NCBI RefSeq assembly: GCF_013394855.1
Contig: NZ_JABMLK010000001.1
Span: 930,001 to 994,000 of the forward strand
Source of the DNA: Limnobaculum xujianqingii
Lineage (GTDB): Bacteria; Pseudomonadota; Gammaproteobacteria; Enterobacterales; Enterobacteriaceae
DNA: 64,000 bases
Reading direction: 5' to 3'
The translations under genes and the position numbers were made by a program. The notes under the pieces were generated by a model. It was not told the origin of the DNA, did not search any database, and worked only from the letters and a program-made list of their open reading frames with translations. Positions within the stretch are counted from its first letter, which is position 1. Each line of letters opens with the position of its first letter. This document shows, one piece after another, positions 46,635 through 62,279 of the stretch.

Positions 46635-46703
46635 TTAGCCCACAGCCGTTAGTCACTATGTGCAGTATGTGTGTGGAGTGGTTGACGTTTGGCTGTGGGC
46701 TAA
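46635..46703 (+). repeat. GTGCAG/TGTGGAG element inside a 13-bp inverted repeat
   Basis: TTAGCCCACAGCC (46635-46647) and its exact complement (46691-46703) enclose GTGCAG (46660-46665) and TGTGGAG (46672-46678). These two motifs recur in other prophage leaders. No gene follows on the plus strand, so this copy may be a relic or an RNA in its own right. Confidence 0.7.
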
Positions 46704-46712
46704 ATACAAAAA

Positions 46713-46734
46713 AGCCCCGACAAATGTCAGGGCT
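46713..46734 (-). terminator. Terminator after the ImmA/IrrE gene
   Basis: AGCCCCGAC(aaat)GTCAGGGCT with an A-run on the plus strand. It closes the two-gene cassette at 46757-48446. Confidence 0.82.
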
Positions 46735-46756
46735 AGAATGTGATACTTAAAATTTA

Positions 46757-47836
46757 TTAATTAACTAAGCGTAAATGGCTTTGACCATTCAGACCATAAA
46801 GCTGCCGAACTTCCGGTAGGTGCAGACTAAATACTGAAGCCAACTCATTTTGGTCATAACTTAACTCTTCTCGAACATATTCTATCATTTCATTCAATAG
46901 AGTCGGTTTTTCTCCATTTACCTCAAGCTTTACTGGTTCATCTATCTTATAACGCTTTATTGCCATTTGGCGCCAAATCCAATCACTCTGTCCTGCTGTA
47001 ATTGCATTTAGTGTTTTAGCTCTATAAAGAATGAAAGCCATAGAAGTCCGCCAAAATGGTTTTAAATAGGCAGCTTTCTCTATGTTAATGTTTCGCAGTT
47101 GATTCCCGATATCAATCGCAGGCATCAGGAACTCTGCAGCAAACGCATTTGCTTCATCTTCCATTGTATGACTTGGGGCTTTATGCATAACTAAATGCCC
47201 TAACTCATGAGCTAAAGTAAAACGATACCTGTCCATTGGCTGATTTTTATTGATAAAAATTAATGGCGGTAATGTAGGAAGATTATAACTTAACCCAGAA
47301 AGACCAGAGTCTTCCATATCGCAATCAATAATTATTATTCCTGCTCTTTCCAAGGCATCAACTATATTCTTTATCGGGCCTCTGGGAAGATGCCAAGCTC
47401 TACGAACATTCTGAGCTATTTCCTCAACTGGATAATCTTCTGGATCATAATACGGAAGCTCATACTCAGGCTCAAAATCAACAAACTGTAATAGCTTTCT
47501 AACATGAGCAATTCGTACGTTAACCTCAGCAAGTAACTTATCCAGAACTTTCATTCCAACTGATGCTTTCTTGCGATACATAGGATTAACACTAACAGGT
47601 CCGCCATATAAACGCTCAGGAAGCATAAAAAAATCAATAGGGCACGATAAAGCCTGAGACAAGCTATTTAACTGCTCATCAGTAACAGGTTTTAATCCTT
47701 GCTCTATTTTTGAAAGAGTACCTTGAGACACTGAAATTCTAGCAGCCAATTCCTTCTGGCTGCAGCCTAACATTCTTCGTCTCAATTCAATCATTTCAGG
47801 GCGTATGGTAGTTGCTGGCTTAATCTCCCCGACCAT
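46757..47836 (-). CDS. XRE-HTH plus ImmA/IrrE metallopeptidase (RmrT-like)
   Basis: A 359-residue protein. An N-terminal XRE helix-turn-helix (MIELRRRMLGCSQKELAARI, SQGTLSKIEQGLKP; about 15-65) is followed by an ImmA/IrrE zinc protease with FTLAHELGHLVMHK (HExxH, about 215) and a downstream Glu in DEANAFAAEFLMP. It overlaps the upstream gene by 17 bp, a two-gene unit that ends in a terminator. The HTH-protease protein beside an unknown partner is the layout of the RosmerTA toxin-antitoxin defence system, as far as I recall. Alternative: a phage repressor-cleaving ImmA-like regulator. Confidence 0.82.
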   Translation of the reverse strand: MVGEIKPATTIRPEMIELRRRMLGCSQKELAARISVSQGTLSKIEQGLKPVTDEQLNSLSQALSCPIDFFMLPERLYGGPVSVNPMYRKKASVGMKVLDKLLAEVNVRIAHVRKLLQFVDFEPEYELPYYDPEDYPVEEIAQNVRRAWHLPRGPIKNIVDALERAGIIIIDCDMEDSGLSGLSYNLPTLPPLIFINKNQPMDRYRFTLAHELGHLVMHKAPSHTMEDEANAFAAEFLMPAIDIGNQLRNINIEKAAYLKPFWRTSMAFILYRAKTLNAITAGQSDWIWRQMAIKRYKIDEPVKLEVNGEKPTLLNEMIEYVREELSYDQNELASVFSLHLPEVRQLYGLNGQSHLRLVN

Positions 47837-48446
47837 TTTCTATTTTCGCCTCTCTCGTCTTCGTCCGCTTTGCTTTAACAACGGACTTCGCTGGTTTAAC
47901 TTGTGTGGCTTTCTGATCTCCACCGTCACCCCAAAGATTATTATTTTCAGGCATTTCATGCACATTGTAGTTACTGAGATCAATAGCCCAAGCTACATAT
48001 TTCCCATTTCTTTGAGTGAGGACTATTTTATCAATTTGTACGCCATCGTCACTAAGTATATATAACAATTCTAAGCGAACTAAGCCGCCAAATAGATCAA
48101 CATTAGGATCGTGGAAATCCATAGCTGCTTGCGTTGGGTAGTTTGATGACCGAAAATTTTTATCCCCTTTCTTGATTCGGACAAAATATTTATCCTGAAT
48201 AAGAAATCCGGTCTGATGTCGAAGCTTTATATACTTGATATCACTCAGCCCACTGGTTTCAATTTCATCATTTAGAAAGAATAATGCATCGTTACGTAGA
48301 ATTGCGGCCCGAGCACGCTTATCCATCAAGCGATGAGCCACACTATTTAACAACCAACCATTCCATACCTGACTAAAAACAGAGGTAAAAACTGGGTAAT
48401 ACTGATTAAACTTCGAATCCGCTTCTTCTTTTGTAATTAATGCCAC
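47820..48446 (-). CDS. Unknown partner of the ImmA/IrrE protein (RmrA-like)
   Basis: A 208-residue soluble protein (MALITKEEADSKFNQYYPVF, then LMDKRARAAILRNDALFFLND, YIKLRHQTGFLIQDKYFVRIKKGDKN). The C-terminal 30 residues are very basic (KPAKSVVKAKRTKTREAK). No known domain is recognised. The shared operon and 17-bp overlap with the HTH-protease gene suggest a toxin-antitoxin or defence pair, with this as the first product. Strand agrees with the late operon, but terminators flank it. Confidence 0.65.
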   Translation of the reverse strand: MALITKEEADSKFNQYYPVFTSVFSQVWNGWLLNSVAHRLMDKRARAAILRNDALFFLNDEIETSGLSDIKYIKLRHQTGFLIQDKYFVRIKKGDKNFRSSNYPTQAAMDFHDPNVDLFGGLVRLELLYILSDDGVQIDKIVLTQRNGKYVAWAIDLSNYNVHEMPENNNLWGDGGDQKATQVKPAKSVVKAKRTKTREAKIENGRGD

Positions 48447-48572
48447 GCTAAATAACCTTTTAATATTTTGTTGTGAAATGCAGCATTAGTATAAAACCCA
48501 GCTACAAAAACAGCAACAAAATATTCCAAAAACTATTCCAAAAGCATTAATTGACTGATTTTAAAATTAAAA

Positions 48573-48595
48573 AACCCGCTCAAAGATGGCGGGTT
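48573..48595 (-). terminator. Second terminator downstream of Q
   Basis: AACCCGC(tcaaagatg)GCGGGTT with A-run on the plus side. With the one at 48739 it isolates Q from the cassette. Confidence 0.8.
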
Positions 48596-48738
48596 ATTAA
48601 TGAAGCTCTTCGGCGTAGCTATTCCAGCTTACAATGAAAATCTATACTGAATGACTGAATATGTCAATAAAATAATTCCATTTAATTAAGTTAATATAGA
48701 AATATTTCCTATAATTCATATCAAAAGGGAAATAAAAA

Positions 48739-48760
48739 AGCCCCAGCATCAACTGAGGCT
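48739..48760 (-). terminator. First terminator downstream of Q
   Basis: AGCCCCAG(catcaa)CTGAGGCT, A-run before on the plus strand. Q-modified polymerase would need to read through both this and the next one if the late promoter lies upstream of them. Confidence 0.75.
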
Positions 48761-48783
48761 TTATCTACAATCACTCAAAACAA

Positions 48784-49143
48784 TCAATCTGTAGCGTATG
48801 CATCACCACTATTTACATAAAGCTGACCAGCTATAAACGCCTCTGCTACCCGTAAGATGCCCGTTACATAACTTGTTGCCTTCCCGATCTGCTTCGCTAA
48901 CTTTGCCTGACTAATTCTATAAATATAATGAGCTATCACTAATTTGTAGGCTAATTCATCATAATGCCTTAATCCTGATACCGCGCTATCAACCTTCATT
49001 GCATCGGATTCGCTACACTCCGCACGAGTATAATCAGACGATGATTTCATATCCTGAAAGCCAGGAGCCACCTTTTTATACTCAGTGCCACAACTACACC
49101 TTGCCCAATTTCCCCACATTTCCAATACAGTTTTAATATGCAT
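48784..49143 (-). CDS. Antitermination protein Q-like
   Basis: A 119-residue protein. MHIKTVLEMWGNWARCSCGTEYKKVAPGF, CSESDAMKVDSAVSGLRHYDELAYKLVIAHYIYRISQAKLAKQIGKATSYVTGILRVAEAFIAGQL is the phage_antitermQ (PF06530) pattern, with an HTH in ISQAKLAKQIGKATSYVTGIL. It lets polymerase read through late terminators. TGTGTGGAG is the ribosome-binding site 8 nt before ATG. Confidence 0.85.
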   Translation of the reverse strand: MHIKTVLEMWGNWARCSCGTEYKKVAPGFQDMKSSSDYTRAECSESDAMKVDSAVSGLRHYDELAYKLVIAHYIYRISQAKLAKQIGKATSYVTGILRVAEAFIAGQLYVNSGDAYATD

Positions 49144-49161
49144 ATTTACTACTCCACACAG

Positions 49162-50193
49162 TTATTTTCTTAATGCACCAATACCCAGGGCTCTATTCAA
49201 AAATCTGAATAACAACGTTAACTGGTTATCGTGCCTCTCTTCCCATGCCTTCGTATCGGCATGAATTTCCCCGTGGCACCGTCTGCACAACGGAAGCACG
49301 AAAAGATCGTGTACTTTTGTTCCCATTCCTCCCAATCCATGGCCTATGACATGATGCGGATCATCAGCAGTAGCACCACATCCACAACATGGCTGTGTTT
49401 TTACCCATCGAGTGTATTGTTCACATTCCCAGCGAATCAGTTTTGGTTTAAGCATGTAAGATTGCGGCGGTTCTGCATCACCGACTAATTTAATAACCGG
49501 CTTATCCAGTTGTTCCCATCCCTCACGGGCCATTACTGCCATTTCTTCAATCACTGGTACCGCTCTATCATCAAACGGCGTTATATCTGCCTCTTTCATC
49601 TCTCCGCCTGGTAGAGAATTTTTAGGCAGATTCAATACCTGCCGGGCAATATCTTCTGGCAACCGGTCAGACACCGATTTAAGAACAGACCACCAACACA
49701 CCTCATGAATACTAAGTTGATGGTCTTCCGGTATCCTTAAATCACTGCTGATGCGCTCAAGAACCCATTCAATAATATTGCGCCGAGCCAGCTCATCCAG
49801 TACCGGCGTTGACCATTCACGCATTTTATTATCATGATGCCAGCATAACCTGATCGCGCTATTGCCATAGTTCAGGGTAGTTAATTGGTGGTGACAGTCT
49901 TCATCTGATACCTGGCAGCACTTCCGACCTGATATGGCGTTGATTAACTGGCTCTTACCACCAGCAGCCAAAATTACATCAGAATTTATCAGGAACGGGG
50001 TCAGGGCATGATTAAATGCTAGGTTCTGAACAATATCGGGCAACGGCCCAGAGTTGACCTGCTGTAAATATTCCGGCTCGTTACAAATAAGGATCCGTTG
50101 TGTGCGCCGAAAATTGGGGAGCAGTTCGCTCCCCGGTTTCAGTATCACAATTCCAAGATCCTGCTGAACATAAGGTGTTAGCAGCATTCTCAT
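49162..50193 (-). CDS. DUF968 family putative recombination nuclease
   Basis: A 343-residue protein. The C-terminal CCGCGATADDPHHVIGHGLGGMGTKVHDLFVLPLCRRCHGEIHAD is the DUF968 zinc/HNH-like domain of lambdoid nin-region genes. The N-terminal 200 residues are less conserved. Between the antirepressor-like gene and Q, as in nin regions of many phages. It is predicted to act on DNA, but the substrate is unknown. Confidence 0.82.
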   Translation of the reverse strand: MRMLLTPYVQQDLGIVILKPGSELLPNFRRTQRILICNEPEYLQQVNSGPLPDIVQNLAFNHALTPFLINSDVILAAGGKSQLINAISGRKCCQVSDEDCHHQLTTLNYGNSAIRLCWHHDNKMREWSTPVLDELARRNIIEWVLERISSDLRIPEDHQLSIHEVCWWSVLKSVSDRLPEDIARQVLNLPKNSLPGGEMKEADITPFDDRAVPVIEEMAVMAREGWEQLDKPVIKLVGDAEPPQSYMLKPKLIRWECEQYTRWVKTQPCCGCGATADDPHHVIGHGLGGMGTKVHDLFVLPLCRRCHGEIHADTKAWEERHDNQLTLLFRFLNRALGIGALRK

Positions 50194-50196
50194 GAT

Positions 50197-50988
50197 TTAC
50201 ACCACCTGTGCTAAACCCAAAGTACCTTTCATTTCGAATCGACCGATTTTAGGGTGATACCAGTATTTGCTACGTACAGGCCGAGTAGATTCATTAAGAA
50301 CAGTTTTAATTGCCCCAAGGAAATCATCCTCCCGGACAACTGTTACATTAGACAAGATACCTACAGGAGTCATAAAAGGTACTTTTTTACTTTCCAGGCT
50401 AAATGCTTTTATTAAATCACGCGTTTTCTGTACAGATAATCCACCTTCAGAGGAAAGATTTTTGATTGTCTGCCACCCCGGAGGGATGGCGCCTGAAGAA
50501 ATCTGCTCTATTTGACGCTCAACGCCATTAACCCGACACTCAAACTGCTTCATTCGACGCTGATTAGCTACAGCTTCAGATGCTATACGAGCAATCATCT
50601 CAAGTTCTGATTCAGGTTCATCCCTAAAATAGGCACTTTCCATTTTTTCAAAGAATGACCAGGCTTCATCAGTATCGACAATCTTTGACATTCGGGCGGC
50701 GCCTTTCTCGGTATATAGAGTTAAGCTGCGAGCCTTGTTCGAAATTTGTGCGTCAATATTATTAGCGCACAAAATTTGCACTTCATCGCCAGTTAAGGTG
50801 ATCACATGAACCCCTTCGATGAAGCGAGATCGGTGATTGGACAAATTGGCACGGAGATTGGATGCTGTCGTACCGTAACCAGCCGCCAGCGTTTCAGTGG
50901 TAACGACGCGGGCACCTTGCCATTCAATGACAGGAAGATTTTCGACAGCAATAGTAGAAACTACGCCAGTAGCGTTTAATTGATTCAT
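50197..50988 (-). CDS. ORF6N-domain antirepressor-like protein
   Basis: A 263-residue protein. The N-terminal ORF6N DNA-binding domain (LPVIEWQGARVVTTETLAAGYGTTASNLRANLSNHRSRFIEG) is followed by a linker coil and a C-terminal domain, GWQTIKNLSSEGG...ESKKVPFMTPVGIL...TRPVRSKYWYHPKIGRFEMK, shared with the KilA-N protein at 53414-54175. Such proteins modulate lytic gene expression. Its leader carries a GTGCAG hairpin (51017-51050) and TGTGTGGAGG. Confidence 0.85.
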   Translation of the reverse strand: MNQLNATGVVSTIAVENLPVIEWQGARVVTTETLAAGYGTTASNLRANLSNHRSRFIEGVHVITLTGDEVQILCANNIDAQISNKARSLTLYTEKGAARMSKIVDTDEAWSFFEKMESAYFRDEPESELEMIARIASEAVANQRRMKQFECRVNGVERQIEQISSGAIPPGWQTIKNLSSEGGLSVQKTRDLIKAFSLESKKVPFMTPVGILSNVTVVREDDFLGAIKTVLNESTRPVRSKYWYHPKIGRFEMKGTLGLAQVV

Positions 50989-50996
50989 GTGTTTTC

Positions 50997-51050
50997 CTCC
51001 ACACAGTTTTAGTGATGCTCCTCCCCAAACATCTGCACAATGAAAGGAGC
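50997..51050 (-). repeat. GTGCAG hairpin plus TGTGTGGAGG leader of the ORF6N gene
   Basis: On the minus strand, GCTCC...CAT-T-GTGCAG-ATG...GGAGC forms an interrupted hairpin (outer arms 51046-51050 and 51017-51021; loop 51033-51038). It is followed by TGTGGAG (51003-50997), 9 nt before the ATG. Same plan as the elements at 54353, 60094 and 62246. Confidence 0.65.
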
Positions 51051-51126
51051 GGTTAGATCGAAAATACAGCAGTGATAAACTTTTTTCTAGCCATTAATTC
51101 AATGAAAATTAAAGACTACCGTACCA

Positions 51127-51216
51127 TTACTGCCTTTTCTTTAGTTTCTCTGGTGCTAATAACAAAACAGCTACACCGGCACAGGCCACAACGGTCAAAA
51201 ATATTGCTAATCCCAT
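51127..51216 (-). CDS. 29-residue membrane micro-protein
   Basis: MGLAIFLTVVACAGVAVLLL then EKLKKRQ: one TM helix with a basic end. GGAGGCGCA precedes ATG and its first codons overlap the PerC-like gene stop (51207), so translation should be coupled. Unknown function. Confidence 0.55.
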   Translation of the reverse strand: MGLAIFLTVVACAGVAVLLLAPEKLKKRQ

Positions 51217-51563
51217 TGCGCCTCCAGTTCATCAAGATCGATTTCGACTATAACTCCGGTTGCACCTTCGCTTTCATCCGTCTTTCTTAATGCTGCCGCT
51301 TTCTTTAACGCTCGATAACACCGGTCTTTTCCATCCATGGCGTACTTCTGGGTATAGGCATTGTCGTTTAAATCAAATACCAATCCCCATATCTCTATTG
51401 CCCGGCGTAACCATCCCTTATTCTCGTAATGATGAGCAAGCCTACATACGTCATAGAATGCCGGACTCTCTCCGGAGAACTGAGGTGGTTTTTCTGGCCC
51501 TCTAAATGCACCAATACAAGTGGAGGCGATTTCATCATGTAGCACGGCGTTACTTTTCCTCAC
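51207..51563 (-). CDS. PerC-family regulator-like protein
   Basis: A 118-residue protein. CRLAHHYENKGWLRRAIEIWGLVFDLNDNAYTQKYAMDGKDRCY matches the PerC family core (ExKGLWRRAAxRW...). Phage-encoded PerC-like proteins are known to activate host virulence or adhesion genes. The N-terminal 35 residues and acidic C-terminus lie outside the domain. It overlaps the methylase gene by 4 bp. Confidence 0.7.
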   Translation of the reverse strand: MRKSNAVLHDEIASTCIGAFRGPEKPPQFSGESPAFYDVCRLAHHYENKGWLRRAIEIWGLVFDLNDNAYTQKYAMDGKDRCYRALKKAAALRKTDESEGATGVIVEIDLDELEAQWD

Positions 51564-52207
51564 GCTGCCACCCTCCCCAGCCGCCCCGCTTCCCTTCGGA
51601 TTTGTTCCAGAAATGCTTCGCCGGTGTCTACCAGTTGATCACGGGTCACATAGCTGAACCGCTCCCCTTTCCACGTCTTATCAAAAACTACTATCGCACC
51701 AGCAAAGAATGCGCCGGTTGGTTTTTGCTTGTCGTTGGCAGGGATAAACCACAAGGGAGCATCAAACCCGATGCGTCCACGGATGAAGACAATGTGATCG
51801 GCATCTTCTGGCCACCATGCCTCCGATGTTGCTGCTTTGATTAAAAACACATACCGGCCGCCCTTCTCACGCATCGCCATTGTGTGATTCATGATATGAG
51901 TCATGCCGGTTATATATTCCCCGTCATGCTGCTGTGGTCGGCTATAGGGTGGATTAGCAAACGCGGCGCCGCGCAACTCTTTCAGACGTTCAGACCAGTC
52001 CTGAGTTAGCGCGTTGTCCTCTGCTGTGTAATACGCTGGGCATTTGCTGTTTTCAGCATCAGTAAACAGATCTAGCGCCAGCGGACCAAACATACTGTTG
52101 ATACCCCAGAATATGGGATCTGGTGTACGCCACTGATCGCCTATGTCTTTTAGATAATGACTTTCAACTGACCGCTGTTCCATCAATTCTTGGCTGTAGG
52201 TATTCAT
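51560..52207 (-). CDS. Phage N6-adenine methyltransferase (Dam type)
   Basis: A 215-residue protein. QWRTPDPIFWGINSMFGPLALDLFTDAENSKCPAYYT and GAAFANPPYSRPQQ (NPPY catalytic motif) mark the phage DNA N-6-adenine-methyltransferase family PF05869. The SAM-binding part is LALDLFTDAEN. It may protect phage DNA or time replication. It overlaps the replication gene. Confidence 0.9.
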   Translation of the reverse strand: MNTYSQELMEQRSVESHYLKDIGDQWRTPDPIFWGINSMFGPLALDLFTDAENSKCPAYYTAEDNALTQDWSERLKELRGAAFANPPYSRPQQHDGEYITGMTHIMNHTMAMREKGGRYVFLIKAATSEAWWPEDADHIVFIRGRIGFDAPLWFIPANDKQKPTGAFFAGAIVVFDKTWKGERFSYVTRDQLVDTGEAFLEQIRREAGRLGRVAA

Positions 52208-53417: not shown

Positions 53418-54175
53418 ACTGATACCTCCTTCATTTCAAATCGGCCCAATTTAGGGTGGTACCAATATTTACTACGGCAGGGACGGGTAGCCCCTCGCTT
53501 TACTTCCGTTAGGGCTGCTATAAATTCGGCTTCATTGGCTACAGTTGCATTAGCAAGAACACCATTCGGCGTATTGAAAGGTACTTTTTTGCTTTCTACG
53601 CGAAATGCTGCAATCAGAGCGCGAACTTTGTCATCAGACAGACCAGAAATTGCTACTAAGTTTTTTATAGTCTGCCATCCCGCTGGGATTGTTCCCGCAG
53701 AAATGCGGTTAACTTCGGCTGATACACCAGAAACACGCTGTTCTATAGCCAATAGTCGCCGTTGACTTTCAGCGGCAACAGTAGCCATTTTAGCGATCAT
53801 CTCCATCTCAGTTAATTGAGTAGGCATCTGAATGCCAGAATCAAATGTCCTGATGACTTTTAAGTTAAATGCAGGACTAATCCACATGGCATACGCATAA
53901 ACCAGTTCACGACACGCGTATGTACCCTGATTAATGCCTCCTCGGATTGATTCGAATGAAGCAATGCTCATATCTGAGCAACGGTCAATTTCTGCACATA
54001 AATCTCTAATCTGATCATGTCGCAAAAAATTAGCGGGTTTATGCCGTTCCTCACCACCTGCTGCAATATGTAAGTCATTGAGACTATAACGCCCCGCCGA
54101 ATCTTGACGGATAGTTGTTCCATCGATGGCTAAACCAGAGGTATCAGCCGTTGGCTGAGTGGCTAAATGATGCAT
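53414..54175 (-). CDS. KilA-N domain antirepressor-like protein
   Basis: A 253-residue protein from ATG 54175 (MHHLATQPTADTSGLAIDGT; upstream GGGGTGG). The KilA-N DNA-binding domain spans about 14-105 (YSLNDLHIAAGGEERHKPANFLRHDQ, YACRELVYAYAMWISPAFNLKVIRTFD). The C-terminal 110 residues (GWQTIKNLVAISGLSD...ESKKVPFNTPNGVL...TRPCRSKYWYHPKLGRFEMK) are paralogous to the ORF6N protein at 50.2 kb. Confidence 0.87.
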   Translation of the reverse strand: MHHLATQPTADTSGLAIDGTTIRQDSAGRYSLNDLHIAAGGEERHKPANFLRHDQIRDLCAEIDRCSDMSIASFESIRGGINQGTYACRELVYAYAMWISPAFNLKVIRTFDSGIQMPTQLTEMEMIAKMATVAAESQRRLLAIEQRVSGVSAEVNRISAGTIPAGWQTIKNLVAISGLSDDKVRALIAAFRVESKKVPFNTPNGVLANATVANEAEFIAALTEVKRGATRPCRSKYWYHPKLGRFEMKEVSV

Positions 54176-54342
54176 ACGCCACCCCGCCGATTCACTACAC
54201 CCACAATTCCAGCGGCGCGACTGTGGTTGCACGGTACCCAGCGACCTTTTATCATGCGCTCATACCGAAACAACGCGCCACGCCCTACCAATGGAACAGC
54301 GCGAAGTTGCGGAAAATGCAACTTTGTTGTTAAACTGATCAT
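54163..54342 (-). CDS. Hypothetical small early protein
   Basis: 59 residues (MISLTTKLHFPQLRAVPLVG, RGALFRYERMIKG). TGTGGAGTAATTAAC precedes ATG 54342, and the stop overlaps the KilA-N start (54175), so it is probably translated and coupled. GRGALFRYE and GVVNRRGG look like conserved phage micro-ORF pieces, but I cannot name the family. Confidence 0.55.
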   Translation of the reverse strand: MISLTTKLHFPQLRAVPLVGRGALFRYERMIKGRWVPCNHSRAAGIVGVVNRRGGVCII

Positions 54343-54349
54343 GCGTTAA

Positions 54350-54898
54350 TTACTCCACACAGTTGTTTTTGACGCCGACGCCAGTGACCTGCACAGTCCT
54401 GGCGTCAACCTTTTCTTCGGGCGGACAAAAATATCGATATAGCAGAGTGTTATATTCCATCCACTTGGCTATGACCTGATGACTGTCATCTTCAATAAGC
54501 TCTCGCTCTGCCAAATCGATCACCCCATCAGCAATAGCCAGCTTCACTTTCTCTGAGTGCTTACCCATCCAAGTGATGGCATCCAGTAGACGATTATTGA
54601 TATCGTCATTATCTACTTCACCGATATCCACCAGTGGTACATTTACGCTATTTGAGTACCGGGATACTGCATCTGCAATATGAGTAGTCCCACTCGCTCG
54701 TTGCAATACCAGCGCCCAGCCCATCGGGAAAATCTGATCACCATCTGCACGTAGCCGGTTAAATATTGCGTTCTCTGTTACGTCTAACCATTCAGCCGCG
54801 TCAGAATATCCACCGGGCAGACTTGCTATTGTCTTTTTGATAGCAATAATCAGCCATTCCGGCTGCTTTTCTGCTTTCCAATTTTGTTTAGGTCCCAC
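54350..54898 (-). CDS. ymfL: YmfL-like regulatory protein (CII position)
   Basis: A 182-residue protein. LIIAIKKTIASLPGGYSDAAEWLDVTENAIFNRLRADGDQIFPMGWALVLQRASGT has an HTH and matches the YmfL family known from e14. It occupies the cII position, first gene after the Cro-like gene on the rightward (here minus strand) early transcript. It may act in lysogeny control or replication. Confidence 0.8.
   Translation of the reverse strand: MGPKQNWKAEKQPEWLIIAIKKTIASLPGGYSDAAEWLDVTENAIFNRLRADGDQIFPMGWALVLQRASGTTHIADAVSRYSNSVNVPLVDIGEVDNDDINNRLLDAITWMGKHSEKVKLAIADGVIDLAERELIEDDSHQVIAKWMEYNTLLYRYFCPPEEKVDARTVQVTGVGVKNNCVE
54353..54406 (-). repeat. GTGCAG hairpin plus TGTGTGGAGTAATTAAC leader
   Basis: On the minus strand GACGCCAG-GAC-TGTGCAG-GTC-A-CTGGCGTC forms a strong two-step hairpin (54406-54377), followed by TGTGGAG (54359-54353) and ATG at 54342. 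It overlaps the 3' end of the ymfL-like gene, so the structure is constrained also by coding. Confidence 0.72.
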
Positions 54899-55988: not shown

Positions 55989-56014
55989 AAATCCTAAACT
56001 ATTAGGGAGTAAAA

Positions 56015-56449: not shown

Positions 56450-56451
56450 TT

Positions 56452-56778
56452 ATGGCTCAGACGTTTAAGTTTGATGAGGAAAAGCAGAAAAGACAATCCC
56501 TATCATCACCCTCCTTACAAAGAGAACATGAACACGGTGGTGGTAATGGTGGAGGTAATGATATGTTAGAAGCTAGGGTTAAAAAAATTGAAGAAGACCT
56601 GCATACAATAAAAACAGATATAGCGGTCATTAAATCAAATTATTCTTCAAAAGAAGATATTTCCTCTATTAGGATAGAGTTACATCAATCAATATCAGGA
56701 CAAACTAAGTGGGTGGCAGCAACAATCATTGCAGTCGCTGGCGCATCTCTTGCAGTTGCAAGGTTCATTTTTTTATAA
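56452..56778 (+). CDS. Hypothetical coiled-coil membrane protein in rexB position
   Basis: 108 residues. A polar, His/Gly-rich start (EHEHGGGNGGGND), a coiled coil (MLEARVKKIEEDLHTIKTDIAVIK) and a C-terminal TM helix (WVAATIIAVAGASLAVARFIFL). The layout resembles XhlA-type holin-like proteins. Two bases after the 56449 stop, hence one operon with cI. It could be the membrane effector of an exclusion pair. Confidence 0.6.
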   Translation: MAQTFKFDEEKQKRQSLSSPSLQREHEHGGGNGGGNDMLEARVKKIEEDLHTIKTDIAVIKSNYSSKEDISSIRIELHQSISGQTKWVAATIIAVAGASLAVARFIFL

Positions 56779-56790
56779 TCTTAACGATCC

Positions 56791-56808
56791 AGCCCCTTAA
56801 TTGGGGCT
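56791..56808 (+). terminator. Terminator of the cI operon
   Basis: AGCCCC(ttaatt)GGGGCT with TTTTTT. The hairpin is base-identical to that of putative small RNA A at 41616-41633 read on the minus strand. Confidence 0.88.
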
Positions 56809-56984
56809 TTTTTGTGCCTACAATCCAAGAAATTTATTCATCCTTAAAGCCCGCCTTTGTGACACTTATCACATTACTAGAATACTGGTGACGATTCCGT
56901 AACCGAGAATCAAATTACTTTCAAACTAAATTCTTTTTATTATCAATAATATAACCGAATTCGCATGCAATTGCCTCCACATAA

Positions 56985-57024
56985 AATACATTTTGTATTT
57001 ATTATTTTAAATACATCTTGTATT
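56985..57024. promoter_or_regulatory. Left operator region (two sites)
   Basis: AATACATTTTGTATT (56985-56999) and AATACATCTTGTATT (57010-57024), two palindromes 25 bp apart, matching the site at 55203. They should control the plus-strand left operon that starts with the 57145 gene. The pair O_R/O_L is 1.7 kb apart and may allow looping, as in lambda. Confidence 0.82.
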
Positions 57025-57086
57025 ATTAATCTATCGAAAGCAGCACATCAAGTGTTCCGTTAACAATATAAAACACAGAATATCCG

Positions 57087-57127
57087 TGTGGAGTGTAACC
57101 AGGTGGTTCAGAGTGCAGTCTGACCAC
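57087..57127 (+). repeat. TGTGGAG/GTGCAG hairpin in the left-operon leader
   Basis: TGTGGAG (57087-57093), then GTGGTTCAGA (57103-57112), loop GTGCAG (57113-57118) and TCTGACCAC (57119-57127). The stem has 9 bp with one bulged T. CGCTACAGGAGCG follows and encloses the real ribosome-binding site of the 57145 gene in a second mini-hairpin. The order motif-hairpin is reversed compared with other copies. Confidence 0.68.
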
Positions 57128-57144
57128 GCTACAGGAGCGTAATA

Positions 57145-57381
57145 ATGAAACCAACTGATCTGAAACCTGGTGCGCGAGTGATTATTGAATCACACGGTGG
57201 CCGTGATGTTGTTGTGGGTACATTCATCAGGCGCGTATCAAGACAACCGAACAGACCAGCCCATAGCATTATTCGTGTTGATGATTTTGCCGGGTTGCAT
57301 GGTTCCGATGACCTTGGTGATACCCCATATCCTGATTATGTGGTTTCTCGGCGGGTTTATCCGCAGCCGGAAAAAAAATAG
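57145..57381 (+). CDS. Hypothetical first gene of the left operon
   Basis: 78 residues (MKPTDLKPGARVIIESHGGR), SH3-like beta pattern with KPGARVIIE...VVVGTFIRR...SIIRVDDFAG. It sits at the N position but is not basic-arm-like. Preceded by AGGAGCG. Might modulate transcription or be a decoy protein. Confidence 0.6.
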   Translation: MKPTDLKPGARVIIESHGGRDVVVGTFIRRVSRQPNRPAHSIIRVDDFAGLHGSDDLGDTPYPDYVVSRRVYPQPEKK

Positions 57382-57399
57382 CTGCCACCACAAACAAAA

Positions 57400-57421
57400 A
57401 AGCGAACCACCAGGCTCGCTT
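57400..57421 (-). terminator. Terminator between converging genes
   Basis: AAGCGA(a) and TCGCTT arms with a T-run on the minus strand, for the leftward 57461-57967 gene. It would also hinder the plus-strand left operon unless antitermination acts. Confidence 0.65.
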
Positions 57422-57460
57422 ATTAATAGAAGTAAATGCTCTTTAACAACTAGGCCGACA

Positions 57461-57967
57461 CTATTCCTCACCAGGTTTCTTGACGTTATTGGCAAGATAA
57501 TCAGCTTGATTTGGTAACCCACCAGCAAGCCATGAAAGTATCTTTTGGCATCTGGTTAAAGTGATAGGCGTCTCGTCTTTAAGGCCTAAGACTATTGTAG
57601 CCCGTTGTTGAGCCGCAAATTCTAAGATATGCCACACCTTGGTATCAATGGACTCAATTCTTAAGAATTCAGCTTTCAGTTGCTCGTCGGTCAATGATGG
57701 CTCATTTCTTATCAACTGAAGATATCTAACAGCCTGAAGGTCTGCTGCTGCAGAAGCCTTGCCAAATTGGTAAATAAATGAAATTGCACTAAATAATGCA
57801 ATAAGAGCGCCGTAAGCCATTGTTCCCTTAAAAGAAGCAAAAACAGAGGCACCTAAGAAAAAAATCAGGGCAGAAAGAAAGCGATCGATTCTTCCCCAAA
57901 GGGTTGATTGCATCCTCTCTAAGTAATGCGAATGGTTGAGCTGATAAATCATCTCATAACGTGTCAT
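57461..57967 (-). CDS. Two-TM protein, possibly SLATT-like effector
   Basis: A 168-residue protein. Two adjacent TM helices (LSALIFFLGASVFASF and YGALIALFSAISFIYQFG, about 33-70) are followed by a long helical cytosolic part. TM pair then helices near AAADLQAVRYLQLI is the plan of SLATT membrane effectors in nucleotide-signal or abortive-infection systems. GAGGTAATAC precedes ATG. Opposite strand to the left operon, terminator behind: likely cargo. Family call is tentative. Confidence 0.55.
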   Translation of the reverse strand: MTRYEMIYQLNHSHYLERMQSTLWGRIDRFLSALIFFLGASVFASFKGTMAYGALIALFSAISFIYQFGKASAAADLQAVRYLQLIRNEPSLTDEQLKAEFLRIESIDTKVWHILEFAAQQRATIVLGLKDETPITLTRCQKILSWLAGGLPNQADYLANNVKKPGEE

Positions 57968-58105
57968 GTATTACCTCACCTTCTTTGATCGGTTGAGACC
58001 CATATAAAAAATTACAGGTATCTGGATGAATAACATATTCAAAGATTGGTTGGTAGCACTCCAATCTTACCACGATCGCTGTGAGTGGAAAAATAATCAG
58101 CGACT

Positions 58106-58549
58106 TTATTTATTAGGTTGAGGTGGAGGTGTTGGTCTTGGAGCAGGTTTAGGGGAACGATGTCCACCAACATCAGGCCTATTACACAATACCTTGGGTT
58201 TTGGTGCTGGCGGTGGCTTCGGGGTTTGGTGATTAGGAACGATAGGACCTTGAGATAAACAAATCTCAATTTTTGGTTTTGGAGATGGTGCTGGTTTAGG
58301 GCATTTATGATCTTCTCCATATCCACGACGCTCCTCAGTCATGAAAATCTTCGGTTTCGGTTTTGGAGCTGGCGTTGGTTTTGGACATTTATGGTCACCA
58401 GTTCGAATCATCCAGACTTTAGGTTTTGGAGTTGGTCTTGGGTTTTTATGAAAAGGCTCTACAGGGTCAGAATCCTGACTATAGATTTTAGACGGATTAG
58501 GTTGTGGTGGAGATACAGGACTTCTGTGCTTGCGCTCATAATCTGACAT
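58106..58549 (-). CDS. Proline-rich repeat protein
   Basis: A 147-residue protein, about a third Pro, with four or five repeats of the type HKCPKPTPAPKPKPKIFM / HKCPKPAPSPKPKIEICL / HQTPKPPPAPKPKVLC. Cys residues recur at each repeat. No TM or signal. AAGGATAT precedes ATG. It lies ahead of the two-TM gene, possibly one unit. Unknown; could be a binding scaffold or spacer protein. Confidence 0.6.
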   Translation of the reverse strand: MSDYERKHRSPVSPPQPNPSKIYSQDSDPVEPFHKNPRPTPKPKVWMIRTGDHKCPKPTPAPKPKPKIFMTEERRGYGEDHKCPKPAPSPKPKIEICLSQGPIVPNHQTPKPPPAPKPKVLCNRPDVGGHRSPKPAPRPTPPPQPNK

Positions 58550-58811
58550 AAAAATATCCTTATCTGTTGTGGTGACATAAGGATACCACTTCGCCGGAAG
58601 TGGTTAAACATCCGGCACTTACAAATATTCAAAAGCGCCCTGCGGCTCAAACTTAAACTGTGATGAGTAAATGTAACAAGCTGATGGGGCGCTTCTGAAT
58701 GCAGACCTTAACAGGTCGTGTGGAGTGGTAAACCGCTGTGAACGTGGGCGCTATGTGCAGTATGGCAACCATCAACACAGTACCTTTAAATATTTACGGA
58801 GTAGTTAACGT
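58550..58811. other. Structured leader before the yfdP-like gene
   Basis: A hairpin ACCACTTC(gccg)GAAGTGGT at 58586-58605; a long inverted repeat AAGCGCCC at 58630 with GGGGCGCTT near 58686-58694; GACC(ttaaca)GGTC then TGTGGAG (58719-58725); GCTAT-GTGCAGT-ATGGC (58750-58766). Then GGAGTAGTTAAC and ATG 58812. It should hold the divergent promoters for the minus cargo genes and plus genes. Confidence 0.6.
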
Positions 58812-59183
58812 ATGAGTAATGACCGTATGACTGTTATCCCTGATTTCTTCGGGGAACTGGATGCTGGTGTATTCCAGAATAAGTTTGCCGCCGCTCTGAA
58901 TAACGTGGCGCTGGGTGTCCTTAATAATGCTGGTAAGGGCAAGGTAACCATCACCCTAAACATTGAGCGACTGAATAACTCAATTGAGGAAAAGCGGGTT
59001 GGCATCAAGCACACCCTGTCTTTTACCACCCCTACCCCTCGCGGCAAATCTTCTGAAGAAGATACCACCGAAACGCCGATGTACGTCAATAAGGGCGGAA
59101 AACTGACCATTTTGCAGGAAGACCAAGGTCAACTGTTCACTATTGCTGGAAAGCCTGACGGCAAGCTATCAGCAACCAAATAG
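58812..59183 (+). CDS. YfdP-like phage protein
   Basis: A 123-residue protein (MSNDRMTVIPDFFGELDAGV, FQNKFAAALNNVALGVLNNAGKGKVTITLNIERL). It precedes the DUF2303 gene as yfdP precedes yfdQ in the E. coli CPS-53 prophage. Function unknown; the pair is common in lambdoid left operons. Confidence 0.72.
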   Translation: MSNDRMTVIPDFFGELDAGVFQNKFAAALNNVALGVLNNAGKGKVTITLNIERLNNSIEEKRVGIKHTLSFTTPTPRGKSSEEDTTETPMYVNKGGKLTILQEDQGQLFTIAGKPDGKLSATK

Positions 59184-59216
59184 TCCCATACTCATTATTA
59201 AGTTTAAGGAAAAATT

Positions 59217-60047
59217 ATGACTCAGTTAGACGCATCAGCAATCAATGAAATTAAAGATCTGACGCTGGCAGGACATCACACTAGAGGGCTTGACGCTGTA
59301 GCCTCTGATATTGCTGTATTACCAAGTGGCTATAACGTTGTAAACCTTGAAAAATTTAATTTATATCGTGACCGTTTTCGCGGCTGTATGAGCACAACCA
59401 GTATTGATGATTTCGTTCGCTATTCCATTCAAACCGCCGATTTTGAAGCCAGTCCTGCTGGTTGCTTCATTAATGCGGATGCGATGGAGGCGGTCAGTAT
59501 TTTTAATCTCGGTAATGTCGCCAACCCCGGCCATGCAGATAACACTGCATCAATTGCGCTGAAGAAAACAGCCCCTTTCCGTGCCCTGCTGGATATTAAC
59601 GGTCGTAAAAACCGCCAGAAGGATTTAGCTGAATGGCTTGAAGATTGGAAAGAGTACCTTCTTGCTTTTGATGCTGAAGGCGCTGAAAAGAGCATCCAAC
59701 AAGCCGTTTCAGCAATCCGCCGCATCACAATTGAGTCAATATCTTCCTCTGACCATGAAGATCAGGACTTCAGCGCAAAACGATCTGTAATGGAGAGTGT
59801 AGAAGCTAAGAGCAAAGAGGTTATGCCGGTTGCGTTTGAGTTTAAGTGCGTTCCTTACGAAGGCTTAACCGAGCGACGTTTCAGTCTGCGTCTTAGTATT
59901 CTGGCCAGCGATACCCCTCAGCTAGTTCTTCGTATTGTTCAACTGGAAACCGCAGAAGAAGCGATCGCAATGGAATTCCGCGACCTGCTGATCGAGAAGT
60001 TCACAGATAAACCAGTTAATACCTTTATCGGTTCGTTTAAAGCGTAA
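59217..60047 (+). CDS. yfdQ: DUF2303 family protein YfdQ
   Basis: A 276-residue protein. LPSGYNVVNLEKF, RFRGCMSTTSIDDFVRYSIQ, INADAMEAVSIFNLG and PGHADNTASIALKKTAPFRALL are DUF2303 hallmarks. In the left operon with yfdP- and yfdR-like genes. The family function is not established. Confidence 0.88.
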   Translation: MTQLDASAINEIKDLTLAGHHTRGLDAVASDIAVLPSGYNVVNLEKFNLYRDRFRGCMSTTSIDDFVRYSIQTADFEASPAGCFINADAMEAVSIFNLGNVANPGHADNTASIALKKTAPFRALLDINGRKNRQKDLAEWLEDWKEYLLAFDAEGAEKSIQQAVSAIRRITIESISSSDHEDQDFSAKRSVMESVEAKSKEVMPVAFEFKCVPYEGLTERRFSLRLSILASDTPQLVLRIVQLETAEEAIAMEFRDLLIEKFTDKPVNTFIGSFKA

Positions 60048-60093
60048 TGCTGCCCAAAGCTACCGGTTTGCCGGTGGCTTTACGAAGTGTTAC

Positions 60094-60130
60094 AGCGTTG
60101 TGCAGACGCTACCCATTAACTGTTGTGGAG
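60094..60130 (+). repeat. GTGCAG hairpin plus TGTGGAG leader of the yfdR-like gene
   Basis: AGCGT (60094-60098), loop TGTGCAG, ACGCT (60106-60110), then TGTGGAG (60124-60130) and TAATTAAC before ATG 60139. Clean example of the repeated element. Confidence 0.72.
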
Positions 60131-60138
60131 TAATTAAC

Positions 60139-60693
60139 ATGTCTTGGTTAACGACAATTTCAGGTAAGCATTTTAACTATCAAGACCCCGACCCAGGTTC
60201 TATTTGCATTCGTGATATTGCCCGTGCTCTATCCCATGAATGCCGGTTTGCTGGTCACGTTCCAGCGTTTTATTCAGTTGCCCAGCACTCTGTTTTCGTC
60301 AGCCATTTAGTGCCGCAAGAATTCGCAATGGAAGCACTGCTGCATGATGCTGTTGAAGCATATTGCAAGGATATTCCTGCCCCATTGAAACGCCTGTTAC
60401 CTGATTATCAGGCAATAGAACATCGTATCGACCTGTTAATTCGTGGTTTATTCAAGCTGCCGGCAGAGCACAGTAAAGAGGTTAAACACGCTGATTTGGT
60501 AGCACTGGCAACTGAACGGCGGGACTTTGGGCTTGATGATGGTACCGAGTGGCCCATCTTAAAGGGGATTACCCCAGACAAAGAGCTAATTCTTAGCTGG
60601 CCTGCATATGATGCATATAACGCATTTATTGACCGGTTCTATGAACTGAAAAATGCTGGCTACCAAGCCTCAGTAGAGGGCCAGAAACTATGA
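60139..60693 (+). CDS. yfdR: HD-domain 5'-nucleotidase, YfdR-like
   Basis: A 184-residue protein from ATG 60139 (MSWLTTISGKHFNYQDPDPG). HD metal site: RFAGHVPAFYSVAQHSVFV, LLHDAVEAYCKDIPAP and HADLVALATERRDFG. It would hydrolyse nucleoside monophosphates, tuning nucleotide pools. Same order yfdP-Q-R as in CPS-53. An earlier ATG frame in the leader lies inside the hairpin and is not used. Confidence 0.9.
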   Translation: MSWLTTISGKHFNYQDPDPGSICIRDIARALSHECRFAGHVPAFYSVAQHSVFVSHLVPQEFAMEALLHDAVEAYCKDIPAPLKRLLPDYQAIEHRIDLLIRGLFKLPAEHSKEVKHADLVALATERRDFGLDDGTEWPILKGITPDKELILSWPAYDAYNAFIDRFYELKNAGYQASVEGQKL

Positions 60694-60797
60694 GCCAAGT
60701 TAAGTTCTCTTTAGGCGCAAAGCTGTTTATAGCTGGCCTCATTTTAGTCTGGGTATTGTGTATAGCTGCATTGGGAGTGCTTATCCATGGATACTAA
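60690..60797 (+). CDS. 35-residue membrane micro-protein
   Basis: MSQVKFSLGAKLFIAGLILV then a continuous TM segment to LIHGY. ATG overlaps the yfdR-like stop (ATGA) and its stop overlaps the next ATG (60787), so it is well fixed by context. Role unknown. Confidence 0.65.
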   Translation: MSQVKFSLGAKLFIAGLILVWVLCIAALGVLIHGY

Positions 60798-61293
60798 CAC
60801 TGCATTTACACCCAGTAATGTGCAAATTGACCTAATGCAGCACGCTCTGGGTATTAGTGAGCACAACCGAAACGATATTTATCGAAATTATTTCTATGTC
60901 GATGGCAGACATTCTCACTGGGATGAATTAGTAACTCACGGATACGCGACCGTTCAGAAAGCACCAGCATTTACCAGTGGAGGGGTTACTTATCACTGTA
61001 CCGAGCGTGGGCGTATAGCAGCAATTTGCGCTATACCGGAGCCGGAGAAGTTAACCGGTGGAAAGCAGAAATATAATGAATACCTCCGCTCAGAGTGTTG
61101 TGAATCATTTGCAGAGTGGCTTGGTATTGAAGTTCCTGAACGTGATTACTGCTATTGGGGAGAGGATGACGGCAAAGTCCGACTGAGAAGCAGCCGTGCG
61201 ACTGGCGAATACTGCAAAACATTAAAGGACGCCAAGGCCAGTTATAAAGCTGCTCTGAAAGCTAAAAAGGAAGGTGCTTATGTCTACTACTAA
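60787..61293 (+). CDS. Hypothetical left-operon protein
   Basis: A 168-residue soluble protein. N-terminal winged-helix-like part (LMQHALGISEHNRNDIYRNYFYVDGRHSHWDELVTHGYATVQ, TYHCTERGRIAAI) then a C-terminal helical part with many Lys (KDAKASYKAALKAKK). The first half resembles small proteins of siphophages that precede xis. Function unknown. Confidence 0.65.
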   Translation: MDTNTAFTPSNVQIDLMQHALGISEHNRNDIYRNYFYVDGRHSHWDELVTHGYATVQKAPAFTSGGVTYHCTERGRIAAICAIPEPEKLTGGKQKYNEYLRSECCESFAEWLGIEVPERDYCYWGEDDGKVRLRSSRATGEYCKTLKDAKASYKAALKAKKEGAYVYY

Positions 61294-61528
61294 CACAGGT
61301 ATCAACATCAACGAAGTGTTGGGGCCTTTTAACATAGGAGCTTACTGCATTCATACCAGTAAATATGGAAAACGTGGATGCAGAGTTGTGGGTCACGATG
61401 GGCATGCTGTGATTATAAAGCGACTCGGTGGCGGGTATTACGGAGTGCCTGAAAGGTCTTTAACTCCATGCTCTGTTACTGAGGCGAGAAATGCAGAGGT
61501 GAGCATTAAAGGAAAAAGCCATGAGTAA
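61280..61528 (+). CDS. Hypothetical left-operon protein
   Basis: 82 residues from ATG 61280 (MSTTNTGININEVLGPFNIG; AAGGAAGG upstream). Overlaps the previous gene by 14 bp and the next by 8 bp. IKRLGGGYYGVPERSL; no known domain. Confidence 0.6.
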   Translation: MSTTNTGININEVLGPFNIGAYCIHTSKYGKRGCRVVGHDGHAVIIKRLGGGYYGVPERSLTPCSVTEARNAEVSIKGKSHE

Positions 61529-62237
61529 TGATATCAACACAATTGCACAACAGTTGAGAGCAGCGGCTATTATCAACACGTCAGCCTTTCTGACAGTAAC
61601 AAATAGCGAAGCTATTGCATTATGTGATGCTCTGGAAGCGGCACAGAAACATAACAACGAACTGGAAACCTCAGAGAATCAATTGATTACTGAGCGTGAT
61701 AATGCAGAGCAGGCTTTATCAGATATGTTCATGGCAGTAATTGGTGAGCCACCAGAATGGAGTAATGTGTACGGGTTTATTGATGCTGTTGACGATGTAT
61801 CTGAACGTATCACATATCTTGAATCCGATCCGGTCCAGATAGTGCCGGATGATTATTTCGCTTCGCTGGTCGAAACTGCCCGAGTATCCGCAAATAAGGC
61901 AATAGCTAAATTCCCACAGCCGAATTATGTGCTGCTAAAGGTTGCAGAAGAAGCTGGCGAAGTGGTTCAGGCTGGCGTCCATTACGCAGAGAACCGCAAA
62001 TCTTGGCAAGATGTGGAGGGCGAAATTGTCCAATTATTGGCAATGCTTATTCGACTTGTCACAGAGGGCGATCAAATTAATGGCGTCACTCCGCCTGACC
62101 ACTACCGCATAACCCAACAGCCTGCAACACATGAAGCTGATGTTATTTTAAATCAAAGTAAAGAAGAAATAAAAAAAGTTGTCCATGAGGTACTGATCGA
62201 ACAATCAAAGCTTGGTGGAATGTTAAGTAAATGGTAA
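61521..62237 (+). CDS. MazG-like nucleotide pyrophosphohydrolase with Ead/Ea22-like start
   Basis: A 238-residue protein. The N-terminal half (QQLRAAAIINTSAFLTVTNSEAIALCDALEAAQ) is an Ead/Ea22-like helical region. The C-terminal half has NYVLLKVAEEAGEVVQAGVHY and WQDVEGEIVQLLAMLIRLV, the EExxE...E metal site of MazG-type enzymes. A fusion of two common left-operon modules; likely hydrolyses non-canonical or signalling NTPs. Confidence 0.75.
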   Translation: MSNDINTIAQQLRAAAIINTSAFLTVTNSEAIALCDALEAAQKHNNELETSENQLITERDNAEQALSDMFMAVIGEPPEWSNVYGFIDAVDDVSERITYLESDPVQIVPDDYFASLVETARVSANKAIAKFPQPNYVLLKVAEEAGEVVQAGVHYAENRKSWQDVEGEIVQLLAMLIRLVTEGDQINGVTPPDHYRITQQPATHEADVILNQSKEEIKKVVHEVLIEQSKLGGMLSKW

Positions 62238-62245
62238 GGCAATAA

Positions 62246-62279
62246 GGCCCACGTGCAGGTGGGCCACTACTGTGTGGAG
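62246..62279 (+). repeat. GTGCAG hairpin plus TGTGGAG leader of xis
   Basis: GGCCCAC (62246-62252), loop GTGCAG (62253-62258), GTGGGCC (62259-62265): a perfect 7-bp stem, then TGTGGAG (62273-62279) and ATG 62288. The best-paired copy. Confidence 0.75.

Follow-up and report, generated by a model that had tools for sequence, protein, structure and literature searches.

The early region of a lambdoid prophage in Limnobaculum xujianqingii carries a dispersed family of hairpin leaders, and we consider it likely that these leaders are the targets of one phage-encoded antisense small RNA (sRNA) of about 75 nt. We analysed a 64,000-nt stretch of its genome (assembly GCF_013394855.1, contig NZ_JABMLK010000001.1, positions 930,001 to 994,000), referred to here as the window, in which an initial annotation had noticed hairpins with a GTGCAG loop close to a TGTGGAG motif and had proposed that the loop is read by a protein, by an antisense RNA or by kissing between leaders. 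Of these options, the antisense RNA gained support from a predicted transcript, conserved and with complementary loops, on the strand facing one of the sites, kissing lost ground and a protein is not needed.

In the proposed mechanism, a σ70-type promoter hidden in the first 12 codons of a ymfM-like gene would start the RNA, which would cross the ymfM-like ribosome-binding site (RBS) in antisense direction, enter the CII-like gene from its 3′ end and stop at a hairpin. The RNA is predicted to fold into two hairpins, one with an anti-RBS loop, CUCCA(C/U), and one with an anti-loop, CYGCA. In cis it would be fully complementary to the ymfM-like leader; in trans, CYGCA would pair with the NUGCRG loop of other leaders while loop 1 pairs with their UGGAG. 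Ribosome binding would be blocked on the xis, antirepressor, yfdR and Q messages, so that early lytic genes would be restrained or timed. Most likely the RNA represses lytic functions that are leaky or early, among which the antirepressor and Xis are the most informative targets; we infer both this sign and a role in lysogeny. The elements in the window are as follows, with duplex energies in kcal/mol:

54307..54312 (+): −35 element TTGCGG inside the ymfM-like gene, a match to the signature described below; TTG is the complement of the Gln codon CAA, codon 12
54331..54336 (+): −10 element TAAACT, 18 nt past the −35; TANNNT is kept in 40/40 distinct N-termini
54343..54417 (+): predicted antisense RNA of about 75 nt, its start placed from the promoter and its end from the hairpin and U-rich tail
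54343..54375 (+): hairpin 1, whose loop displays CUCCACACAG (anti-RBS, CUCCACA)
54377..54406 (+): hairpin 2, terminator-like, with the loop CUGCACA at 54389-54395 (anti-loop)
54353..54406 (−): cis target, the ymfM-like gene leader, with loop GTGCAG at 54389-54394 and RBS TGTGGAG at 54353-54359
50997..51045 (−): proposed trans target, leader of the ORF6N antirepressor-type gene; duplex −21.8
49152..49163 (−): proposed trans target, RBS of Q, no hairpin, extended complementarity to loop 1 of the RNA; duplex −26.9
57087..57127 (+): leader of the gene at 57145-57381, a TGTGGAG box and then a GTGCAG hairpin; duplex −17.5
58719..58770 (+): leader of the yfdP-like gene, a TGTGGAG box 5′ of a weaker TGTGCAG hairpin; duplex −20.6
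60094..60130 (+): proposed trans target, leader of the yfdR-like gene; duplex −21.4
62246..62279 (+): proposed trans target, xis leader; covariance model 37.2 bits, duplex −20.9
46635..46705 (+): intergenic inverted repeat (13 bp) around GTGCAG and TGTGTGGAG, no gene start seen; duplex −19.4

The seven GTGCAG loops lie where the initial annotation had placed them, at 46660 (+), 51033-51038 (−), 54389-54394 (−), 57113 (+), 58755 (+), 60100 (+) and 62253 (+), with TGTGGAG at 46672, 50997 (−), 54353 (−), 57087, 58719, 60124 and 62273, and the loop-less TGTGGAG it had seen ahead of Q is at 49152 (−). Random sequences had been suggested as a check on this association, and they bear it out: GTGCAG occurs within 60 nt of a same-strand TGTGGAG eight times in the window compared with 0–2 times in 500 dinucleotide shuffles, and with at least three flanking pairs required the count is seven compared with none (470 shuffles) or one (30 shuffles). 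The eighth place, at 12415, has no stem. Of all hexamers lying no more than 60 nt from TGTGGAG in the window, GTGCAG is also the commonest (8; the runners-up reach 5). TGTGGAG does stand just before an ATG, in five cases and not the four that had been counted (54342, 50988, 60139, 62288 and Q at 49143), at a distance of 8–10 nt. Its reading as a ribosome-binding motif holds at these five genes but not at 57113 and 58755, where the box lies 5′ of the hairpin and is not an RBS. The hairpin at 46660 is present, but its stem is weak and enclosed by the 13-bp inverted repeat, and no gene start is visible downstream; speculatively, the repeat at 46635-46705 could be a decoy for the antisense RNA.

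The hairpin leaders are not confined to the window prophage. We gathered loci via YfdR (68 viral contigs and 10 named genomes) and via the CII-like protein (77 viral contigs), together with named phages, and by sequence comparison the window sites are members of an extensive family of leaders found in lambdoid prophages of enterobacterial hosts. In 2.07 Mb, comprising the window and the first 155 loci, GTGCAG was the top loop among 2800 distinct strong hexaloop hairpins (42, followed by its reverse complement with 39, the same-family TTGCAG with 14 and the best unrelated loop with 9). When hairpin leaders of starts with GGAG were compared across the 120 permutations of this hexamer, 59 distinct leaders had GTGCAG; the next permutations were GGTGCA (17), which is another register of the same hairpins, and ATGCGG (12), a family variant, and the rest had 4 or fewer. 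The separation is less clean when upstream hexamers are counted irrespective of a stem (GTGCAG 70, GGTGCA 46, GGCGTA 26 and GTGACG 20 distinct contexts). The GTGCAG loop, taken to be constant, is so in the window but not among relatives, where the loop has 6–8 nt and the core NUGCRG: the 150 leaders comprise 96 with GTGCAG, 17 with ATGCGG, 15 with GTGCGG, 10 with TTGCAG, 5 with ATGCAG and 7 others. The box (T/A)(G/A)TGGAG is found in 125 of these 150, for all of which GGAG was required, leaders lacking it being excluded. No Rfam family matched these sites in the window and seven loci at gathering score, or at E ≤ 5. The simple patterns TGTGCAG-gap-TGTGGAG (in viral contigs) and TRTGCRG-gap-TGTGGAG (in 60 genomes) were judged by reading to give mostly chance matches, and a likeness to tRNA anticodon loops was considered and dropped.

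Two versions of the leader stand apart. The yfdP-type leaders (window 58719-58770; L308 30782 (−); L316 7916 (−); L307 27237 (−); the xisE region of L368) carry their TGTGGAGAAAC(C/T)AA-like box ahead of a small hairpin instead of at the RBS, and the antisense RNA may act there by something other than ribosome blocking. In Gilliamella and similar prophages (L127-L130, L218, L223-L225) the leader version has a AGTGCAGA loop; the Gilliamella locus L130 and four similar viral contigs (L218, L223-L225) have the RNA signature with a CUGCAAAA loop at the cII end.

The initial annotation had taken the variable stems around a constant loop for a selected RNA structure, and pairing and covariation in relatives support it. 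For the stem test, leaders were picked by loop and RBS only. At least four Watson–Crick pairs flank the loop in 73 of 96 GTGCAG leader contexts, compared with 44 of 853 GTGCAG elsewhere in the same loci; in 200 swaps of stem partners the 73 became a mean of 12.1 and a maximum of 20. Smaller loop sets gave 9/14 (swap maximum 6) for GTGCGG, 9/14 (8) for ATGCGG, 3/7 (3) for ATGCAG, 6/17 (6) for TTGCAG and 2/7 (2) for TTGCGG. Across 76 distinct 20-mers with no stem requirement, 75.0% of cells are paired compared with 46.6% when shuffled, 131 cells have two-sided changes compared with 53.7, and the covariation score is 0.651 compared with 0.205 when shuffled and at most 0.233 when slid, so that the compensatory changes that had been predicted for relatives are present.

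We next consider the RNA itself, which lies opposite the leader between the CII-like and ymfM-like genes. Across 40 distinct ymfM-like N-termini, from which one spurious ST64B start (MADSQ) was removed, Gln12 is CAA in all 40 (background 34.3%), codon 4 is TTA or GTA in all 40 (background 15.0% and 20.1%) and codon 3 begins with A in all 40 though encoding Ser, Ile, Asn or Arg. Read on the antisense strand, the kept codons spell TTGC, a fixed spacer and TANNNT. The signature made of this promoter with CUCCA and CYGCA occurs in 157 of 370 loci, many of which were fetched because they carry the region, and a reversed-sequence control gave no match in 3.67 Mb. A transcript is on record at the corresponding place in Escherichia coli K-12, where the e14 ymfL-ymfM junction is the counterpart of window site 54389: the available part of PMC3175480 describes ECS003 of e14 as antisense to the ymfM RBS, with a 78-nt region of many reads, a Northern band (2011) at ~70 nt and a fainter one at ~120 nt, and lists it among candidates with predicted σ70 promoters.

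The fold of the RNA is conserved as well. The window RNA has a minimum free energy (MFE) of −27.4 kcal/mol (z = −5.1) with two hairpins, and the 35 diverged sequences folded, the window's included, all show on reading a 5′ helix and a terminator-like hairpin. In a subset of 25 relatives the 5′ helix is present in 25/25, the last loop starts with CYGCR in all 25, and the antisense MFE is below that of the sense strand in 23/25. RNAalifold recovers 11 pairs in hairpin 2, 9 of them with two-sided compensatory changes; it finds none in hairpin 1, where the MAFFT alignment has gaps and single folds were used instead. The bases conserved in the target leaders, namely the loop and the RBS, are those complementary to the two loops of the RNA, while the target stems, whose counterparts in the RNA would be paired, can vary freely.

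A single RNA that reads all leaders must have its variants matched within each phage; since the RNA is antisense to the ymfM-like leader, its own match there is kept automatically and it is the other genes that must follow. In each locus we paired the cII-end leader with the remaining leaders, which gave 137 distinct pairs involving 21 distinct cII-end leaders, and kept a few weak CTGCAG/CTGCGG leaders (8/137); starts without a preceding CGC were dropped from the coupling, duplex, RBS-control and fold sets. The A/G base of the loop agrees in 131/137 pairs (permuted mean 99.8; 2 of 5000 permutations as high), the first core base in 101/137 (70.3; 0/5000) and base x of xTGGAG in 85/97 (46.6; 0/5000). 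The duplex of the 5′ part of the RNA with the RBS is stronger within a phage (−15.3) than with the RNAs of other phages (−12.1), and better in 84 of 91 cases. In 11 loci found by the covariance model described below and not via the CII gene, the 2 phages with A at the base before TGGAG in the RNA-side leader have A in 5/6 other leaders and the 9 with G there have A in 4/15 (Fisher p = 0.046, counted by eye after one row, GCTGGAG, was dropped). At control RBSs without TGCRG, agreement at this −1 base is slight, 75/158 compared with a permuted 70.4 (169/3000). The coupled variation suggests that the other leaders follow changes in the RNA.

Within the window, each of the eight sites forms a duplex with the loop-1 sequence, with energies from −17.5 to −29.1 kcal/mol, and elsewhere only 6 of 6320 segments scanned, in two places, reach −17.4. 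Among the 17 starts with a (T/C)GGAG box there is a clean split: the ymfM-like, Q, antirepressor-type, yfdR and xis genes score −20.9 to −29.1, the other twelve −7.5 to −12.4. The second strongest loop-1 match is the Q leader, which has no GTGCAG loop.

The RNA and the leaders also occur together. The RNA signature is present in 96 of 101 loci with at least two leaders, 72 of these 101 having been fetched via the adjacent CII gene; of the five loci without it, L122 and L127-L129 have no detectable CII-like gene and L299 ends just past its CII-like gene. Among YfdR-fetched loci with a leader it is present in 47/49, and in L195 also on a relaxed pattern. Loci found by the covariance model have it in 12/18; here L387 has the same arrangement with CUCUA for CUCCA, the sequence of L384 ends within the CII-like gene, and L376, L378, L379 and L380 have no CII-like gene of the two types searched within 19 kb. 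In L387, at ~600-800 (−), the cII-end leader has TGTAGAG in place of TGTGGAG.

Genes of many kinds carry the leader. A total of 408 leader instances precede 37 protein clusters, the largest being a mixed cluster of ymfM-like and antirepressor genes (133), YfdR (47) and a YfdP-like protein (25), with ORF6N/KilA-N-type antirepressors and a Q-like protein (3, by reading) among the others. The leader precedes at least five separate small xis-type clusters, assigned from size, sequence and position, between which remote homology is possible; the genes at the xis place in ST64B, mEp460 and mEp390 carry an excisionase annotation. The leader address thus appears to persist while the xis-type gene is exchanged, and the earlier observation of leaders in both early operons is upheld. 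A run of at least four A, the counterpart of the U-tail, was found in 13/39 for the mixed cluster, a value to be read with that mixture in mind, and in 0/19 to 6/9 for other clusters. Lambda has a single NUGCRG-type hairpin before a TGGAG start, terminator-like and ahead of J; lambda (L310) was excluded from the leader sets from the cluster analysis onward and retained in the RNA-signature scan.

A covariance model of the leader family, suggested earlier as a check, matches four of the seven window sites (62246, 60093, 50986 and 54340; E from 2.9e-11 to 0.036), with a weak match to the Q leader (E 0.23) and none to 46660, 57113 or 58755. In the taxonomic family of the window's host, 53 of 149 genomes have matches at E ≤ 0.01, 16 of them at 1e-6, and several matches are divergent pairs a few kb apart. 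Searches of the order (247 genomes) and class (274 genomes) gave 8 matches outside that family, none convincing as a leader; the match in L362 has loop, box and start but a stem of only 3 bp. The window's own genome has 12 matches at E ≤ 1, and only 992246 and 990093, both in this prophage, pass the leader scan. No such leader was found in the examined stretches of Morganella IME1369_02, Pseudomonas VW-6B and Serratia OS31. When a 91-nt version of the site was compared with 5426 complete E. coli genomes, 2677 had a match, and a widespread regulator may therefore have been overlooked.

Several observations weigh against a single RNA acting on all these leaders. The leader family, the structure of the leader RNA, the antisense promoter and fold, and the within-phage coupling emerge from comparison of sequences, from which we also infer action in trans; ECS003 itself has been proposed only as a possible cis regulator of ymfM in the part of PMC3175480 available. 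With only 21 cII-end leaders and 15 RBS contexts from kindred phages, the permutation values should not be taken as exact probabilities. At control RBSs that lack TGCRG there is agreement at −2 (78/158, permuted 56.5, 2/3000) and at +1 (78/158, permuted 48.1, 1/3000), which may reflect targets read by the RBS only or lineage effects. Locus L387 has a CUCUA RNA yet a UGUGGAG target, Serratia OS31 has a CII-like gene without a leader there, and the box lies away from the RBS in the yfdP-type leaders and at 57087. The linker from hairpin to RBS is highly variable, perhaps preventing simultaneous contact at both. Where the RNA is predicted in the window, a consensus scan called no promoter and no terminator, and Yersinia-type phages have a weak U-tail or none. 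On the leader side, single-sequence folds of four window targets are unremarkable (z of −2.1, −0.8, −0.5 and −1.9), and the finding of two-sided changes in six of six stem pairs is not discriminating, as 495/500 shuffles reach the same.

The best surviving alternative, though unlikely, is that a phage or host RNA-binding protein binds NUGCRG hairpins near UGGAG and alters translation, the antisense RNA acting only in cis on ymfM. A constant loop on variable stems is also the usual mark of protein binding, and DUF968 and ymfM-like proteins are present in most of the element-bearing phages compared; yet such a protein predicts neither the coupled RBS base nor the antisense promoter and fold, it leaves the extended, hairpin-less match at the Q RBS unexplained, and no RNA-binding family was found among the scanned proteins, ymfM-like and DUF968 included. 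Kissing between leaders through UGCA is unsupported because it leaves the coupled RBS variation unexplained, and loop variants with UGCG keep only a wobble-flanked self-pairing. We regard as improbable a passive cassette, in which a hairpin and a good RBS serve as a portable insulator or stabiliser for genes without translational coupling: the elements of mEp460, ST64B and mEp390 are mostly at starts that do not overlap the upstream gene, with the cII-ymfM junction of mEp460 and ST64B as an exception, but a passive hairpin needs no fixed loop, and the 59 distinct GTGCAG leaders stand against at most 4 for unrelated hexamers. More doubtful still are DNA-level boundaries that promote exchange of gene modules, as the leaders ahead of five or more xis-type clusters might suggest, for homologous exchange requires identity whereas the stems differ and covary, and the arrangement is strand-specific and ahead of gene starts. 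Least credible is an intramolecular loop–RBS pseudoknot (the window GUGCAG could pair with CUGUGU), or the start-codon-like NUG of the loop as the beginning of a short upstream frame, since many E. coli-type leaders have AGTGGAG or TATGGAG, without CUG, and GUG outnumbers AUG while the frames stop at differing places (by reading, uncounted).

The part of the window discussed here is the early part of the prophage, with int/xis at its right end. The left operon lies on the plus strand; the minus strand holds cro, the CII-like gene, antirepressor-type genes, a replication gene, DUF968 and Q (cro, int and the replication gene being assigned by position and similarity). The window YfdR is 97% identical to that of L. 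allomyrinae, and YmfM is annotated as a cell division inhibitor in MG1655. The genes concerned are:

54163..54342 (−): ymfM-like small gene, 59 aa, after the CII-like gene; weak PHROG match phrog_20047, E 0.0015
54350..54898 (−): CII-like (Phage_CP76) gene, with the hairpin inside its 3′ end
50197-50988 (−): ORF6N antirepressor-type gene
48784-49143 (−): antiterminator Q gene
57145-57381 (+): gene behind the leader at 57087
58812-59183 (+): yfdP-like gene
60139-60693 (+): yfdR-like gene
62288-62533 (+): xis, Exc family; Pfam Exc match

In L038, at 1270-1480, the YmfM-type open reading frame (ORF) of E. coli phages looks less protein-like in its second half than an overlapping frame, hinting at frameshifting or overlapping genes past the first ~60 residues. 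Elsewhere in the window, an sRNA-Xcc1 Rfam match at 41797-41887 (+) scores 56.7 bits, barely over the gathering score, and a weak tRNA-Ala-like gene (anticodon AGC, 34.1 bits) lies at the prophage edge, 46283-46363 (−).

Lambda nut sites occur once per early operon and consist of a boxB loop with boxA. The leaders described here differ, as the initial annotation had held: there are several copies per operon, they stand at gene starts and their loop is NUGCRG (boxA was not searched for). The start-associated SAS/ESAS motif of cluster K mycobacteriophages is likewise repeated at the starts of many gene families, about half the copies with an inverted repeat, and its binder and role are not known according to the part of PMC3203893 available. 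As read there, its 13-nt core and its repeat arms are conserved and its spacer varies, whereas here the loop is conserved, the arms vary and the core is UGGAG; sequence and hosts differ as well. In the open full-text literature searched, which lacks many subscription papers, we found neither the leader family nor trans targets of ECS003 described, nor a tested function for ECS003. We take ECS003 to be the same RNA as that of the window; the available part of PMC3175480 presents it as one candidate cis-antisense RNA and describes no family, fold or other targets.

By position the RNA resembles lambda OOP, which, in the parts of PMC5869508 and PMC12197685 available, is transcribed from pO, a promoter in the 5′ end of the gene that follows cII, overlaps the cII 3′ end in antisense direction and terminates at a hairpin, with a listed length of 77 nt. 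By its conservation, the window promoter (54307-54336) similarly lies in the first codons after cII and points into the CII-like gene, and the sizes are alike (75 nt predicted here, a 78-nt region and ~70-nt band in K-12), each ending at a hairpin within cII. Unlike OOP, it has a promoter-plus-loops signature that is absent from lambda, and OOP is listed in those parts of the sources as a cis regulator of cII with no matching leader family mentioned. In its presumed action the RNA resembles c4 of P1/P7 and sar of P22, small phage RNAs that, in the available part of PMC12197685, pair with the antirepressor message ant and block its translation; the window RNA is complementary to an antirepressor-type RBS (the 50988 leader, duplex −21.8), for which repression is predicted. 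That source lists one target, ant, for c4 and sar, whereas the window RNA matches the ymfM-like, yfdR, xis, antirepressor-type and Q leaders. By analogy, then, the antisense RNA sits at the place of OOP and should act like P1 c4 or P22 sar, with many targets.

A broader view, on which we are evenly divided, is that one RNA, made in the lysogenic control region, acts after transcription as master switch for the early lytic programme (ymfM-like, antirepressor, excisionase, yfdR and Q) in many enterobacterial prophages, reading a two-part address of hairpin loop and RBS on unrelated genes and maybe cross-regulating co-resident prophages, such as e14 acting on yfdR of CPS-53. ECS003 gains a testable role. 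If the proposal is true, unrelated genes have acquired a portable address and a promoter shapes the codons of its host gene; and many early genes would be co-ordinated by one RNA, in contrast to OOP, c4 and sar, for each of which the available parts of the sources list a single main target.

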